A stretch of 64,000 nt of DNA from Chloroflexi bacterium GWB2_54_36 (lineage in GTDB: Bacteria; Chloroflexota; Anaerolineae; Anaerolineales; Anaerolineaceae): the NCBI GenBank assembly GCA_001796355.1, contig MGMG01000088.1, positions 1 to 64,000 on the forward strand, read 5' to 3'. The position numbers and the translations under genes were made by a program. The first letter of the stretch is position 1, and every line of letters begins with the position of its first letter. The notes under the pieces were generated by a model. It had not been told where the DNA came from. It searched no databases and saw only the letters and a program-made list of their open reading frames with translations. This document shows positions 1-6,902 of the stretch, piece after piece.

Positions 1-1
1 A

Positions 2-205
2 AGCCGGGCTTCCGCCAAAGCAGCCGACACCAACGTAACCCTCAATATCGACCTTCCCGGCAATGTCAACATGGATACGCTCAAATGCGAGTCGTGCGGG
101 GGCACGCTCAAACCCGAAGACATCAAAATGGTTGCCGGGGCGCCGGTCGTTACCTGCCCCTGGTGCCACACAACCTACCAGTTAACCGAAGAACCCAAGT
201 GGTAA
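2..205 (+). CDS. C-terminal part of a zinc-ribbon protein (5' end outside window)
   Basis: Open frame from base 2 to TAA 203-205: ...MDTLKCESCGGTLKPEDIKMVAGAPVVTCPWCHTTYQLTEEPKW*, with two CxxC pairs. Confidence 0.7.
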   Translation, partial: SRASAKAADTNVTLNIDLPGNVNMDTLKCESCGGTLKPEDIKMVAGAPVVTCPWCHTTYQLTEEPKW

Positions 206-234: not shown

Positions 235-1929
235 ATGCACAGGATTCGGGGTGCTCTCCTGCTGCTTATCGCGCTGATTTTGCTGGCTAGCCCGTCGCCA
301 GCTCTGGCGCAAAATTATTCCTTCGAAGTCCCAGTTCAAAATGTCAGCGTCTTTGTCAATTCAGATGGAACCATCAGTCTGGATTATGTTATCACGTTTG
401 CCAATGAGCCTAACGCTGACCCGATCGACATCGTCGATGTTGGCATGCCCAATTACGATTATGAACTGTACAGCATCAGCGCCACGATCGAAGGCGCGCC
501 GGTTGACCGCATCGCCGACTCTGAATATGTCAGCCCGGGCGTAGAATTCCATCTGGGATCCAATGCGATCCAGCCTGGACAAAGCGGCACACTGCACGTC
601 CAGGTGGGCGTGGTGCGTAATGCATTAGGCGCCGGTTCACAGGAAGAAACCGAACCTTACGCCAGTCTGGTGTTCACCCCCAGTTGGTTCGATTCAAGCT
701 TTGCGCGCGGCAAAACCAATTACACCCTCAGCATCATTCTGCCGCCCGGTATGGAGCCGGAGCAGCCGCGCTACCACACCCCGTCCGGCAATTGGCCGGG
801 CGCAGATGAACCGGTATCCAGTTACGATGATCAAAATCGGGTGGTGTATACCTGGACTGCTGACAACGCTGACGCATCAACCACTTATGAATTCGGCGCC
901 AGCTTCCCCATGGCCCTGGTGCCTGCCGAAGTGGTGGTAGCGACTGAAACTCCCAACACCCGCAGCTTTTCATTGGATTCAATCATTCCTTTTCTGTGCT
1001 TCGGCGGTTTTTTCGCGCTAATCGTTGGTCTTGGCATCGCCGGTTCAAAAGCCGCTGAAAAGCGTAAATTGCAGTACATGCCGCCCAAAATTGCGGTTGA
1101 AGGCCACGGCATCAAGCGCGGCTTGACTGCCGTCGAGGCTGCAATCTTGATGGAGCAGCCGCTCGATAAAGTCATGAGCATGATTCTGTTTAGCGTGCTG
1201 AAAAAAGGCGCGGCTACTGTCGTCACGCGCGAACCGCTCAAGCTGGAAGTCGTCAGTCCGCTGCCTGAAAACCTGCAGCCGTATGAGGTGGATTTCTGCA
1301 AAGCATTCGAAAGCGAAGACAAAGCTGCCCGGCGCCGCGAACTGCAATCCGTGACCGTTGGCCTGGTCAAATCGATCTCCGAAAAGATGAAAGGGTTCAG
1401 CCGCAAAGAAACAATCGAGTATTACACGGCGATCATGGAAAAAGCCTGGTCGCAGGTCACTGCCGCGGACACCCCCGAGATCAAATCCGAGACCTACGAG
1501 CAGGTAATGGAATGGACCATGCTCGACAAAGAATGGTCTGGGCGCACCCAGCAATCCTTCGGCCCGCAGCCGGTCTTCGTACCGACTTGGTGGTGGCGCT
1601 TTGATCCTGCCATGCGCACGAGCGGTGGCGGCGGCATGGCCGCAGCCTCGCTTCCTTCCATGCCGTCAACCGGTCAGGGCGGCTCGATCAACCTGCCTAA
1701 ACTGCCAGGCTCTGACTTTGCCGCCTCGATGGTCAATGGCGCCCAGGCGTTCTCAGCCAGCGTGGTCGGCAATCTGACCACCTTCACCGACACCATCACG
1801 AATAAAACCAATCCCGTGCCCAAGACCACCTATACCCGCTCCGGCGGGTCGGGCGGCGGCGGTCGTTCTTGCGCCTGCGCGTGCGCCTGCGCCGGTTGTG
1901 CCTGCGCCTGTGCCGGTGGCGGACGGTAA
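235..1929 (+). CDS. DUF2207-like exported/membrane protein with Cys-Ala repeat C-terminal tail
   Basis: Signal peptide, beta-rich ectodomain, TM segment (IIPFLCFGGFFALIVGLGIAG), cytosolic domain, Gly-rich linker, then SCACACACAGCACACAGGGR. RBS ggaggtg upstream. Confidence 0.75.
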   Translation: MHRIRGALLLLIALILLASPSPALAQNYSFEVPVQNVSVFVNSDGTISLDYVITFANEPNADPIDIVDVGMPNYDYELYSISATIEGAPVDRIADSEYVSPGVEFHLGSNAIQPGQSGTLHVQVGVVRNALGAGSQEETEPYASLVFTPSWFDSSFARGKTNYTLSIILPPGMEPEQPRYHTPSGNWPGADEPVSSYDDQNRVVYTWTADNADASTTYEFGASFPMALVPAEVVVATETPNTRSFSLDSIIPFLCFGGFFALIVGLGIAGSKAAEKRKLQYMPPKIAVEGHGIKRGLTAVEAAILMEQPLDKVMSMILFSVLKKGAATVVTREPLKLEVVSPLPENLQPYEVDFCKAFESEDKAARRRELQSVTVGLVKSISEKMKGFSRKETIEYYTAIMEKAWSQVTAADTPEIKSETYEQVMEWTMLDKEWSGRTQQSFGPQPVFVPTWWWRFDPAMRTSGGGGMAAASLPSMPSTGQGGSINLPKLPGSDFAASMVNGAQAFSASVVGNLTTFTDTITNKTNPVPKTTYTRSGGSGGGGRSCACACACAGCACACAGGGR

Positions 1930-1944
1930 AAAGGATTTTTATTA

Positions 1945-3312
1945 ATGGTAAAACGCATTTCGAACCTGTTCCCGCGCTTTCTTATAGGCGGCGGTGCCCA
2001 AGTGCCCGGTCTGCCCAAATCCGGGGTTTACCACTACAGCCGGGAGGACCGCGGCGGCAAAGCCCGCATCCATTTGCGCCTGGAAGCGGATGGACATGGG
2101 CTGCTGCTGGTCAACGCCAACCGCGCCTTTCACCTCAACCCCACCGCCGCCCTGATGGCCTACCTGGCGCTGGAAAAAGTCCCCCAGCCGACCGCGGTGC
2201 GCGCCATCACCCGCCAGTTCAAAGTTCCCGCTGAGGAAGCCTTTCTTGACTATGCACAGTTCATCCCGCAATTGGATGAACTTACTGCCCCCGACGGCGC
2301 CTGCCCGGTGCATGACCTGGAGCTGGAAGTGCTGGCGCCGTTCTCGCAGCACCCTTCCGCGCCATACCGCATGGACCTGGCGCTGACCTACCGCTGCAAC
2401 AACAACTGCGCGCACTGCTACAATGCCCGGCCGCGCAACTTCCCCGAGATGGATACCGTTGCCTGGAAGCGCACCCTTGATCTGCTTTGGAAAATCGGCA
2501 TCCCGCACATCGTGTTCACCGGCGGCGAGCCTACCCTGCGCCCGGACCTGCCCGAGCTGATCGCCCACGCCGAAGGCCTGGGTCAGATCACCGGCATCAA
2601 TACCAACGGACGTAAACTGAAGGACCCAGCCTTCGTCCAGCAACTGGTGGATGCCGGCCTGGACCACGTGCAAATCACGCTCGAATCCCATGACCCCGCC
2701 ATTCATGACGCCATGGTCGCGCCGCACGGCGCCTGGCAGGAAACGGTCGCCGGAGTGCGCAACGCGCTGGCTACCCGCCTGTTCGTCATGACCAATTCCA
2801 CCTTGCTGCAGGCCAATGCGCCGTACTTATCGCAGACGCTGGACTTTCTGGCCGAGCTTGGCGTGCCGACCGTCGGCCTGAATGCATTGATCTACTCCGG
2901 ACGCGGCGCGAAAGTCGGCACCGGGTTGCCTGAGTCCGCCCTGCCGCCGCTGCTGGAGATTGCCCGCCAGAAGACGGATTCCGCCGCCCAGCGCTTGATC
3001 TGGTACACGCCTACCCAATACTGCAATTTTGACCCGGTGCAAATGGAATTGGGCGTCAAGGGTTGTTCGGCAGCGCTCTACAACATGTGCATCGAACCCG
3101 ATGGCGGTGTGCTGCCCTGCCAGTCCTACTATACCGCGCTCGGCAACATCCTGACAGACCCCTGGGATAGCATCTGGAACCATGACCTGGCGCTCAGCCT
3201 GCGCGAACGCCGCAACCTGCCCTCGGAGTGTAATTCCTGTGCCTTATTGGCCGAATGCGGCGGAGGTTGCCCGCTGGCGCGCACCGAAGAAACCGTCGTC
3301 ACGCCCGTTTAG
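1945..3312 (+). CDS. Radical SAM/SPASM protein with N-terminal PqqD-like (RRE) domain
   Basis: CxxxCxxC (YRCNNNCAHCY), FTGGEPTLRPDL, SPASM-type cysteines (GCSAALYNMCIEPDGGVLPCQ...CNSCALLAECGGGC); PqqD-like N-terminus (LVNANRAFHLNPTAALMAYLAL). Confidence 0.9.
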   Translation: MVKRISNLFPRFLIGGGAQVPGLPKSGVYHYSREDRGGKARIHLRLEADGHGLLLVNANRAFHLNPTAALMAYLALEKVPQPTAVRAITRQFKVPAEEAFLDYAQFIPQLDELTAPDGACPVHDLELEVLAPFSQHPSAPYRMDLALTYRCNNNCAHCYNARPRNFPEMDTVAWKRTLDLLWKIGIPHIVFTGGEPTLRPDLPELIAHAEGLGQITGINTNGRKLKDPAFVQQLVDAGLDHVQITLESHDPAIHDAMVAPHGAWQETVAGVRNALATRLFVMTNSTLLQANAPYLSQTLDFLAELGVPTVGLNALIYSGRGAKVGTGLPESALPPLLEIARQKTDSAAQRLIWYTPTQYCNFDPVQMELGVKGCSAALYNMCIEPDGGVLPCQSYYTALGNILTDPWDSIWNHDLALSLRERRNLPSECNSCALLAECGGGCPLARTEETVVTPV

Positions 3313-3349: not shown

Positions 3350-4522
3350 ATGGATAAAATTCGCAGTTATTTGAGTCGTTTTTTCACTCAACAGACGCCC
3401 CTTCCTCCTGGCGTGCATCACTACCAGTCGCCGCCGGACGTGCCGGTACCTTTTCGATTGCACCTGCGCATCGAGGAAGGCGGCGAGGGCATTTTGATCG
3501 TCAATGCCTCCACCGTGCTGCACCTCAACCAGACTGCCACCGAGTACGCCTATCACCTGCTGCATCAGACGCCCCCCGGCGAGGTTGCAACTGCAATTGC
3601 CAAACGCTATCGTGTGAGCGTCTCGGACGCACTGCAGGATTTTCAGAATTTCTCGCAGCGGGTCGTTACACTGGTGGAAACGCCTGATCTTGACCCAAGC
3701 ACCTACCTCGATTTCGAGCGCACTGCCCCGCATTCGCAAAAGTTGATGGCGCCTTTGCGCCTGGACTGCGCCCTGACTTATGAGACCTCCGACCGGCAGT
3801 CCGTTGTCAGCGCCCCGGTTGACCGCGTCCACCGCAACCTGACCACCGAGGAATGGGTCGCCGTTCTGGATAAAGCCTGGGACGCCGGCATCCCGCATGT
3901 GATTTTCACCGGCGGCGAGCCTACCCTGCGTCCCGATCTGGTTGAACTGATCACCCATGCCGAACAGCTTGGCATGGTCGCCGGAGTGCTCAGCGACGGT
4001 CTGCGTTTCTCCGAAACCGGCTACCTGCACTCCGTGCTGCAGGCTGGCCTGGACCACCTGATGCTGGTGCTGGATCCTGCCGAGGAGCAATCCTGGGAGG
4101 CGCTGCGCGATACCCTGGCCGAAGATTTATTTGTGACCGTGCACCTGACCGTCACTGAACGCAACGCCTCAGAGATTCCCGCCATTCTGGAACGTCTGGC
4201 CGGGTTGAAGGTCGCATCCTTGAGCCTGAGCGAGGCTTCGGGCGCGCTCAAGCCCGTACTGGAATCCGCCCGCGAGCTGGCTGCCCATCATCACATCGAG
4301 TTGGTCTGGGACATTCCGGTGCCCTATTCGCAATTGAATCCGGTTACGTTGGAGTTGAATGCAGTTGGCGAACATATCGCTGGCGCTGGCCGCTCCTGGT
4401 TGTACGTCGAGCCCGACGGCGATGTACTGCCGCGCCAGGGTTCCAACGCTATCCTTGGCAATCTACTGAACGACCCGTGGGAGCAGATCTGGCAGCGGGC
4501 GCGCGAAGTCGCCCCGGTCTAG
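3350..4522 (+). CDS. Catalytically degenerate radical SAM/SPASM paralogue (pseudo-maturase) with PqqD-like domain
   Basis: Start re-assigned from 3182 to ATG 3350 behind ggaggaaag. Aligns along its length with the upstream rSAM (LNQTATEYAYHLL; FTGGEPTLRPDL; VEPDGDVLPRQ...LNDPWEQIW), but CxxxCxxC and SPASM cysteines are absent. Confidence 0.85.
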   Translation: MDKIRSYLSRFFTQQTPLPPGVHHYQSPPDVPVPFRLHLRIEEGGEGILIVNASTVLHLNQTATEYAYHLLHQTPPGEVATAIAKRYRVSVSDALQDFQNFSQRVVTLVETPDLDPSTYLDFERTAPHSQKLMAPLRLDCALTYETSDRQSVVSAPVDRVHRNLTTEEWVAVLDKAWDAGIPHVIFTGGEPTLRPDLVELITHAEQLGMVAGVLSDGLRFSETGYLHSVLQAGLDHLMLVLDPAEEQSWEALRDTLAEDLFVTVHLTVTERNASEIPAILERLAGLKVASLSLSEASGALKPVLESARELAAHHHIELVWDIPVPYSQLNPVTLELNAVGEHIAGAGRSWLYVEPDGDVLPRQGSNAILGNLLNDPWEQIWQRAREVAPV

Positions 4523-4530
4523 GCAGATCT

Positions 4531-5262
4531 GTGGACTGGCACGCCCGCTACACCCAGCAGGCCGGCTGGACCGCTCAGATTCGCCGCTATCTCTACGAAA
4601 AAGGCGGTCTCGCCAAGACCGCCTGCGTCCTTGAACCCGGCTGCGGTACCGGCGCCGTGCTGGCGGACTGCCCCGCCGGAGCGCTGCACGGCCTGGACTG
4701 GGATGCGCAGCATTTGCAGGTCGCACAGCGCGCCGTCCCGCGCGCCCGTCTGGTGCGCGCCAACGCGGTCACCCTGCCGTATGCCACCGCCAGCTTTGAC
4801 GCCTGCCTGACGCATTATTTCCTGCTGTGGGTGGATGCCGCCCGCGTGCTGGCGGAAATGCGGCGCGTCACTCGTCCAGGCGGCGTGATTCTGGCGCTGG
4901 CAGAACCCGATTACGGCGCGCGCATCGACTGCCCGGCCGAGCTGGCTGAAATTGGCCAGCTTCAGGGATCAGCGCTGGAGCGCCAGGGCGCCGACCCACG
5001 TATGGGTCGTAAATTGGCTGCACTGTTCGCCGCCGCCGGGCTGCAGCAGGTCACCATCGGCGTCATGGGCGGGGAATGGAGCGCCCGTCAGTTCGAGGAC
5101 GGTTGGGATCTGGAATGGGCGGCGCTGGAAGCCGATTTGGCCGGCAGCCTGCCCGCCGAACGCCTTGCAGAGCTGCGCCGGATTGACGCCACCGCCTGGC
5201 AGCACGGTGAGCGCATCCTCTTTGTGCCAACCTTCTACGCCATCGGCTGGGTGCCGGAATAG
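4531..5262 (+). CDS. Class I SAM-dependent methyltransferase
   Basis: VLEPGCGTGAVLADCPAGALHGLDWDAQHLQVAQ motif I; likely GTG start at 4531, 8 bp after the preceding stop. Confidence 0.8.
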   Translation: MDWHARYTQQAGWTAQIRRYLYEKGGLAKTACVLEPGCGTGAVLADCPAGALHGLDWDAQHLQVAQRAVPRARLVRANAVTLPYATASFDACLTHYFLLWVDAARVLAEMRRVTRPGGVILALAEPDYGARIDCPAELAEIGQLQGSALERQGADPRMGRKLAALFAAAGLQQVTIGVMGGEWSARQFEDGWDLEWAALEADLAGSLPAERLAELRRIDATAWQHGERILFVPTFYAIGWVPE

Positions 5263-5652: not shown

Positions 5653-6135
5653 ATGGCGTATAAACAGGCAAAAAACCCAACCACTCCGATCATCCTGATG
5701 ATTTTGGGCTCCGTAATCATTCTGGGCGTCGTCATCTGGCAGACAATCAAGGTGCTTGGCCCGGAAACCACGGCAGCGCAACCTGGCCCTGTTCCAACTA
5801 CCGAAATCCCATTCCCGGAAGTAGCGCGAATTTCGCTGCAAGATGCCAAATCCGCCTACGATGACGGTTCGGCGGTTTTTGTGGATGTGCGCGACCCTGA
5901 ATATTATTCAGCGGGTCATGTTTCCGGAGCGCTCAACATACCCTACAGCCAGGTGAGCCGTCGCATGAACGAGCTGGACAAGAACCAGTGGATTATCACT
6001 TACTGTACCTGACCAGCCGAGGAATCGAGCGCCGGTGCGGCACTCATCCTGCAAGAAAATGGTTTCACCAATATCCAGGCGATCTTAGGCGGATTTGCTG
6101 CCTGGCGGGACGCGGGTTATCCCGTCGAGCCGTAA
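5653..6135 (+). CDS. Membrane-anchored rhodanese-like protein with in-frame TGA at 6010-6012 (candidate selenocysteine; otherwise a nonsense-interrupted pseudogene)
   Basis: N-terminal TM, VFVDVRDPEYYSAGHVSGALNIP, then ITYCT-TGA-PAEESSAGAALILQENGFTNIQAILGGFAAWRDAGYPVEP*; homologous sequence continues in frame to TAA 6133-6135. Confidence 0.7.
6021..6049 (+). promoter_or_regulatory. Candidate bacterial SECIS hairpin downstream of TGA
   Basis: GGA-AUC-GAG-C-GCC-[GGUGC]-GGC-A-CUC-A-UCC; the loop starts with GGU, 21 nt after the TGA. Confidence 0.45.
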
Positions 6136-6273
6136 CCCTCACAGTCTGGCGGTCATTTAGTCTGGTAACACACAGTATTTCCCTATTCGAAAGACGTCTA
6201 TTCTTGTCCGCTTTTGGTATAATTACTTACGGAATCCATTGAATCGAACTTCAATTCAATATTCACCTTTTTA

Positions 6274-6437
6274 GGGAAGAGACCATACACTGGCACCGAA
6301 GGGGCAAAGCGGTTGGAAGCGCATCCACCGCTGAATCTCTCAGGTAAAAGGACCCTAAACAGAGAAACCTCTGGAAAGCCTGCAAGCACCCAAGGGGCAA
6401 GCTCAGTTCAACTGGGCGAATCTCACCGGTCAGAAAC
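6274..6437 (+). ncRNA. Tandem glycine riboswitch
   Basis: Two aptamer-like modules (CACCGAAGGGGCAAA...TGAATCTCTCAGGTAAAAGGAC...; CACCCAAGGGGCAAG...CGAATCTCACCGGTCAGA) directly upstream of gcvH. Confidence 0.93.
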
Positions 6438-6512: not shown

Positions 6513-6902
6513 ATGAAAATCCCGGGCGACCTGAAATATTCTAAGACGGATGAGTGGGTCAAAGTCGATGGCAAGGCGGCCATCATCGGAATCACTGACT
6601 ATGCGCAGTCTCAGCTTTCCGATATCGTCTATTTCGAGTTCAAAGTGGATGCCGGAGAAAACGTAAAAAAGGGCGGTACCGCCGCGACGGTTGAATCGGT
6701 CAAAGCTGCTGCGGATGTTAACTTCCCGGTATCCGGCAAAGTGGTTGAGCTCAATGAGTCGGTGGTTGACCAATTCGAAGGCATCAACTCCAAACCGTAT
6801 GACACCTGGTTCCTGAAGGTTGAAATGAGCGACCTGGGTGACCTGAATGCGCTCATGGATGCCGCCGAGTACGAGAAATACTGCGCGGAACGCGGACACT
6901 AA
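6513..6902 (+). CDS. gcvH: Glycine cleavage system H protein
   Basis: MKIPGDLKYSKTDEWVKVDGKAAIIGITDYAQSQLSDIVYFE; lipoyl-lysine motif GGTAATVESVKAAADV; strong RBS. Confidence 0.95.
   Translation: MKIPGDLKYSKTDEWVKVDGKAAIIGITDYAQSQLSDIVYFEFKVDAGENVKKGGTAATVESVKAAADVNFPVSGKVVELNESVVDQFEGINSKPYDTWFLKVEMSDLGDLNALMDAAEYEKYCAERGH

Follow-up and report, generated by a model that had tools for sequence, protein, structure and literature searches.

A conserved cysteine–alanine tail on a membrane protein as the probable substrate of a neighbouring radical SAM enzyme

The analysed window (the whole stretch of DNA, 64,000 nucleotides) begins with a compact operon in which the gene of a membrane protein ending in a regular Cys-Ala tail is followed by those of a radical SAM (rSAM) maturase, a pseudo-rSAM and a methyltransferase. 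Its features are:

1–204 (+): 3′ end of the gene of a small transmembrane (TM)/zinc-ribbon protein, ending TYQLTEEPKW, truncated at the start of the contig
235–1929 (+): proposed substrate protein, 564 aa, with signal peptide, beta ectodomain, TM, helical domain inferred to be cytoplasmic, linker and Cys-Ala tail (ORF; AF2 model)
322–909 (+): ectodomain, residues about 30–225, all beta in the AF2 model
985–1077 (+): transmembrane helix, residues about 251–281 (AF2 helix 251–281), then basic KAAEKRK
1795–1821 (+): leader-like motif ITNKTNPVP, 5′ of the Gly/Ser linker
1822–1869 (+): variable Gly/Ser/Thr linker
1870–1926 (+): tail CACACACAGCACACAGGGR, proposed core (substrate) sequence
1945–3312 (+): radical SAM maturase, 455 aa, with RRE (PqqD-like), rSAM and SPASM domains (Pfam; AF2; Foldseek)
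2023–2283 (+): RRE/PqqD-like domain, residues about 27–113 (weak PqqD match; beta-strands followed by three helices in the AF2 model)
2395–2418 (+): CNNNCAHC (CX3CX2C), 4Fe-4S/SAM motif, invariant in the rSAM alignment
3022–3270 (+): SPASM region (C360 ... C442), in which the last Cys of many relatives is absent
3350–4522 (+): pseudo-rSAM, a paralogue without CX3CX2C and with the GGE motif retained
4531–5262 (+): class I methyltransferase (Methyltransf_11, E 1.7e-16), start uncertain, the first GTG of the ORF being at 4477

The AF2 model of the proposed substrate had a mean pLDDT of 76, and homologues of this protein were present in 77 of 101 related genomes. Its ectodomain matched in Foldseek only the N-terminal beta domain of M1 aminopeptidases, with a low TM-score, and thus no function was inferred. 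The first-pass annotation had described a large membrane protein of DUF2207-like type. The former part was borne out. The latter stood only for remote homologues, with scores below the cut-offs (L205, 22.3 bits for PF09972, cut-off 24.4; L106, 13.4 bits, cut-off 33), and not for the window protein, which gave no Pfam or NCBIfam match; the gathering-score criterion of DUF2207 (PF09972/PF20990) was met by none of the three. The tail was placed in the cytoplasm, about 290 residues past the TM, on the basis of the signal peptide, the ectodomain and a TM with positive charge after it. This location is an inference: the hydropathy-based count of TM segments was crude (1–4), and only the charge bias was used for topology (mean net charge around the last TM of +2.7 after vs −0.4 before, in 116 proteins).

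The 19 codons at 1870–1926, followed by the stop at 1927–1929, encode CACACACAGCACACAGGGR in the ORF translation, and the C-terminal end of the protein reads ...SGGSGGGGRS-CACACACAGCACACAGGGR-stop. The alternation of 7 Cys with Ala and the closing GGGR described in the first-pass annotation were therefore matched exactly by the reading of ORF 235–1929. In a set of 39 loci retrieved by whole-protein homology, without use of the tail for selection, the last 19 residues were identical in every locus, with 0 amino-acid changes in 741 codons; the linker directly 5′ of the tail drifts freely among homologues, differing in sequence and length. Synonymous codons vary freely: TGC and TGT were about equally used for Cys, all four Ala codons occurred at most positions, and all synonymous Gly codons and five Arg codons were found across the 39 tails, the window tail itself mixing TGC/TGT and GCC/GCG. 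Invariant residues with free synonymous codons show purifying selection on amino acids and not a DNA repeat. The view that it is not a simple DNA repeat was thus sustained, and a DNA-repeat origin was ruled out by the synonymous variation.

The maturase was modelled with a pLDDT of 87. Pfam matches were clear for Radical_SAM (E 2.7e-25) and SPASM (E 2e-9) and weak for PqqD (residues 55–112, E 6.5e-4, 20.4 bits, under the cut-off of 23.4), so that the PqqD-like, radical SAM and SPASM architecture proposed for the gene 15 bp downstream was confirmed, its first element below threshold. The best PDB matches of the model in Foldseek were SkfB, SuiB with its peptide, CteB and PqqE, the SuiB alignment extending over about 460 columns and covering the N-terminal domain; the profile search agreed with these matches. 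Among curated profiles the highest scores were those of heme d1 and PQQ enzymes, far under their cut-offs, and membership of the PQQ or mycofactocin families was not met by the PqqE (112.4 bits vs 381.35) or MftC (83.5 bits vs 265) profiles. The SPASM pattern, C-X13-C-X17-C...CX2CX5CX3C...C, resembles that of enzymes with two auxiliary clusters (anSME, CteB); the window enzyme and those of many Anaerolineales lack its last Cys. No relative was found in a search of viral contigs with the rSAM.

The intergenic gaps of the operon are 30, 15 and 37 nt (15 nt from the stop of the tail gene to the rSAM ATG at 1945), leaving no space for a separate small peptide substrate, and neither a peptidase nor an exporter/transporter nor a small precursor was found in it. 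Where 700 bp of sequence 5′ of the tail gene were available (71 genes), a protein ending EExPKW was encoded before it in 62 cases; the zinc-ribbon matches of this protein were weak and below the cut-off. Downstream, the GGE motif was kept in all 37 pseudo-rSAM homologues, which have a mean of 2.4 Cys, and the methyltransferase was found in 26 of the 37 loci with 4.2 kb of sequence. A pseudo-rSAM gene is kept at L191:2601-3752 in genome G193, which yielded neither a tail protein nor an active rSAM.

Beyond the operon, the window encodes a rhodanese-domain protein (5653–6135, +) with an in-frame TGA at 6010–6012 (...IITYCT(TGA)PAEESSAG..., continuing to ...AWRDAGYPVEP). From its reading frame it is a candidate selenoprotein (YCTU), and the genome encodes SelB (348 bits, above the cut-off). 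An ordinary glycine riboswitch (6264–6365, +; Rfam RF00504, 58.2 bits) lies 5′ of glycine-cleavage genes starting at 6513.

The joint presence of tail and enzyme was determined in two samples. In 301 Chloroflexota genomes drawn evenly, with cut-offs of at least 620 bits for the rSAM and above 350 bits for the protein body, the tail pattern, the rSAM and the body were all present in the same 20 genomes. In the Hungatella family, tail and rSAM (at least 647 bits) were present in the same 12 of 150 genomes and neither was detected in the other 138. A short CACACA pattern matched 11 further genomes of this family; the matches of the 10 inspected (all but G456) were short spurious frames. Among loci of the 4+3, 3+3 and 5+3 tail types with at least 1.3 kb downstream, the next gene was a CX3CX2C rSAM in 76 of 86; an active rSAM lay a few kb away in three of the remaining 10 and elsewhere in the genome in seven. 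All 17 genomes without a tail-adjacent rSAM encoded one elsewhere according to a whole-genome search (fragmentary in two), so that the link does not rest on gene adjacency alone.

Inheritance as a fixed operon was rejected as the sole cause of co-occurrence, the rSAM being found downstream, upstream or far away. No genome with the tail and without the rSAM was found among those searched. The genomes within each sample are related, so that the counts are not independent events, and for some pattern loci the tail was itself the basis of selection; the strength of the co-occurrence comes from the lack of exceptions in two lineages that are distant from each other and in which gene order changes. 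The refutation set beforehand, tail homologues commonly lacking a neighbouring rSAM, was not seen, given the 76 adjacent genes among 86 loci and the one-to-one presence in both samples. The pair meets the RiPP criterion of a ribosomal precursor with a conserved core beside a dedicated modifying enzyme.

A search over one genome per species with a DNA pattern for CACACAGCACA gave at least 119 stretches, in more than a dozen phyla, Asgard archaea included. Bacterial hosts among the matches listed belong to Anaerolineae, Planctomycetota, Armatimonadota, Hydrogenedentota, Aminicenantes, Acidobacteriota, Zixibacteria, Coatesbacteria, Fermentibacterota, Edwardsbacteria, Actinomycetota, Chrysiogenota and Deltaproteobacteria, and the Asgard hosts listed to Hodarchaeota, Heimdallarchaeota, Lokiarchaeota and Sigynarchaeota. 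Cultured carriers among the same matches are Bellilinea caldifistulae, Levilinea saccharolytica, Ornatilinea apprima, Leptolinea sp. and Hungatella hathewayi. The protein bodies of other groups have about 30–50% identity to the window protein. In all matches listed except L104 (Hungatella hathewayi), where it is internal to the chain, the tail ends the protein and closes with GGGR (GGGGGR once). The 116 ORFs of at least 60 aa among these matches comprised the types 4+3 (n=66, plus one ending GGGGGR), 3+3 (n=18), 5+3 (n=15) and 3+4 (n=15, plus L104).

A related ectodomain and TM are found in the homologues from the Hungatella family, several of which have an added zinc ribbon, and no Pfam or NCBIfam family above the cut-off was found for them. 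Their tails are mostly (CA)3-6 followed by GGGRAGC(S/T)xKDFY (SSGRAGC(S/T) in three), most of them without an inner Gly, and an rSAM gene directly adjoins each. At two Chloroflexota loci (L189:5093-6847 and L190:4052-5824) CHSA-repeat tails (CHSACHSACVCHSAC...) replace CA, and the adjoining rSAM is a distant member of the family; these rSAMs form a separate clade, and the CHSA repeats represent another core sequence for an enzyme of this type. A weaker rSAM (349–364 bits) accompanied the CHSA tail in two Chloroflexota genomes, G232, without a CA tail, and G110, with both systems. Two tail proteins in tandem, one with a 3+4 and one with a 2+4 tail, are encoded in one operon at L195:10623-14346. 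The substrate ectodomain also occurs inside a tail-less protein of 900 aa (L193:4445-7144), whose C-terminus gives the impression of a domain of the formylglycine-generating-enzyme type.

Tail type, motif and enzyme changed together. In the rSAM tree (111 rows) the five tail classes required 4 changes, the minimum possible. An ITxxTNPxP-like motif 5′ of the linker was present in 106 of 112 proteins of the 4+3, 3+3 and 5+3 types and in none of 10 proteins of the 3+4 type; a GxDxxTxDVF-like motif was present in all 10 of the latter and in 0 of the former 112. Motif classes that follow the tail and rSAM classes could be what an RRE-read leader looks like, an interpretation for which there are no binding data. 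In five genomes with 4+3 tails the active rSAM belongs to a clade derived within the 3+4 group, and adjoins a tail-less homologue of the cytoplasmic domain of the substrate. Active rSAMs of a derived clade at L047:2062-3744 and L143:997-2748 have a Cys-rich C-terminus of their own (GGGGCSGCSGSCG) and likewise lie next to a homologue of that domain without a tail.

The proposal of the first-pass annotation that the tail is the substrate of the rSAM was supported by the one-to-one presence and by the coupling of tail, motif and clade. It is considered probable that the tail is this substrate and remains on the membrane protein, in the absence of mass or structural data. As the tail was found only alongside its matching rSAM, the enzyme very probably rebuilds it chemically; modification is thus held with high confidence as an inference, none having been seen. 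Points against this reading include the absence of the last SPASM Cys and the five 4+3 genomes with an rSAM of the derived clade.

Among the alternatives, an rSAM that acts on the tail without making Cys-Ala thioethers remains a serious possibility, even if a somewhat doubtful one. Examples would be C-beta (lanthionine-like) bonds, epimerisation, methylation with the methyltransferase of the operon or a metal cofactor on the thiols. Co-occurrence is silent on the chemistry, the methyltransferase is conserved in the operon and SPASM enzymes form many bond types, PqqE being among the fold matches; however, the residue that alternates with the seven Cys is the smallest acceptor, and the thioether makers SkfB and CteB are among the folds nearest by E-value. 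It is unlikely that the tail is left unmodified, its thiols binding metals or clusters or donating electrons as needed by or alongside the rSAM: although seven evenly spaced thiols could hold soft metals or clusters and the gene of a zinc-ribbon protein adjoins the substrate gene, Ala, Gly and the terminal Arg are as invariant as Cys, the leader-like motifs are tied to the rSAM clade and an RRE-like domain is present, all of which would be expected of an enzyme substrate and not of a mere ligand. That the rSAM targets a small molecule or another protein, with the tail protein merely in the same pathway, is more improbable still. One-to-one presence in two lineages despite changes of gene order, the joint change of tail, motif and clade, and the fold matches to peptide maturases argue against it, whereas direct contact was not shown and the top curated profiles, far under their cut-offs, are those of heme d1 and PQQ enzymes. 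An artefact of low complexity or of a DNA repeat, suggested by the plain Cys/Ala alternation and its GC-rich codons, can be set aside, as every synonymous Cys, Ala and Gly codon was used without amino-acid change in 39 homologues, the tail sits exactly at the C-terminus, the reversed pattern used as a control had zero matches in the 301 Chloroflexota genomes and chance matches of the shorter pattern in other genomes were short spurious frames.

Under the preferred reading, the tail as substrate of the rSAM, insertion would leave the beta domain on the outer side of the membrane and the C-terminal half of the protein on the cytoplasmic side. The RRE is inferred to dock on the conserved motif before the Gly/Ser linker (ITNKTNPVP here), and the linker would let the tail reach the rSAM active site. 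There the 5′-deoxyadenosyl radical may abstract H from Ala, C-alpha being likelier than C-beta, and the Ala radical carbon would then be bonded to a Cys sulfur; repetition along the tail would give several Cys-S-Ala thioethers. The pseudo-rSAM may act as a partner and the methyltransferase in a second tailoring step. With the inner Gly taken as a turn, each pair of positions −k and +k combines one Cys with one Ala, and the Cys of the shorter arm all face Ala; a nested ladder of sacti type, with up to six rungs, would fit this arrangement. The majority of known sactipeptides form hairpins whose two sides carry the donors and the acceptors, respectively, and SkfB takes Ala as an alpha-carbon acceptor (PMC8326336). 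Cys-S-C-alpha(Ala) rungs are for these reasons the first guess; given modification, Cys-Ala thioethers are inferred with no better than evenly balanced confidence. The absence of the inner Gly in most Hungatella-type tails means that a hairpin ladder is not general. A membrane-anchored cytoplasmic metal/redox site, or a rigid knob, is only a guess at the role. It is proposed tentatively, at slightly less than even confidence, that bacteria and Asgard archaea share an old class of rSAM-built, multiply cross-linked Cys-Ala tails, which would provide a cofactor or metal site built into a membrane protein on its cytoplasmic side and would not be natural-product peptides.

RiPP chemistry has mostly been discussed for short peptides that are excised and exported. 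The pair suggests a family of rSAM maturases tailoring the tail of a resident membrane protein, with a reach over many phyla of bacteria, a family of gut bacteria and Asgard archaea and with a core more conserved than the remaining protein. Since the tail is short and regular, carriers are in culture and the enzyme is recognisable, the existence of rSAM-modified Cys tails on ordinary cellular proteins becomes directly testable. No NCBIfam or Pfam family or paper was found for the pair, nor any paper joining radical SAM with DUF2207, with Cys-Ala and RiPP or with CACACACA and cysteine, or joining SPASM with Anaerolineae; the search covered mainly open literature, and an earlier description is not excluded. 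In a survey of archaeal RiPPs, rSAM-modified classes in archaea are mentioned, and the tail–rSAM pair was not found so far as the survey was searched.

With respect to known systems, the plan of DUF2207 proteins is alike (signal peptide, beta ectodomain, TM, cytoplasmic domain and Gly-rich tail), and no description of a (CA)n tail or an rSAM partner was found in the literature on them. In Streptococcus mutans, stress tolerance and biofilm are affected when a DUF2207 protein is deleted (PMC10457818), but any relationship of that protein to the one in the window is remote at best. The PQQ (PqqA/PqqD/PqqE) and mycofactocin systems have the PqqD-like domain and rSAM-SPASM in common with the window, and no PqqA- or MftA-like peptide was found beside its genes. 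The criterion of a small, usually cleaved and exported RiPP precursor is not met by a 564-aa membrane protein, nor is that of ranthipeptides (a CX3D/E or SCIFF-type core with beta/gamma-carbon thioethers), the tail being without Asp/Glu. With the sactipeptide maturases SkfB and CteB the window enzyme shares the RRE-rSAM-SPASM/twitch fold, and the criterion of an RRE-rSAM with an auxiliary-cluster domain is met, with the last SPASM Cys missing in the window. Cys donors, possible Ala acceptors and a possible hairpin are also common to both, but here the substrate is a 564-aa membrane protein and the Cys-S to alpha-carbon thioethers are only inferred, from the Cys/Ala pattern.

The closest precedent is TIGR04222/MNIO (DUF692), in which large membrane proteins also carry a C-terminal Cys-containing low-complexity tail and are putative substrates of the adjacent oxidative metalloenzyme MNIO (PMC12452194). 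The criteria for such precursors (profile score over the cut-off and an adjoining MNIO) are not met, the TIGR04222 profile giving no match for the window protein and 16.1 bits vs a cut-off of 43 for the CHSA-type L189. That system uses an MNIO, whereas an rSAM is used here; its tails are loosely Cys-rich and predicted to be periplasmic (PMC12452194), in contrast to the fixed (CA)nG(CA)mGGGR of the window type, inferred to be cytoplasmic; and its association with MNIO is loose, while no exception was found to that of tail and rSAM. RiPP logic, and the idea that membrane proteins may bear modified Cys tails (TIGR04222/MNIO), are thus known already, and the best reading of the window genes is a RiPP-like substrate–enzyme pair whose product stays a membrane protein.
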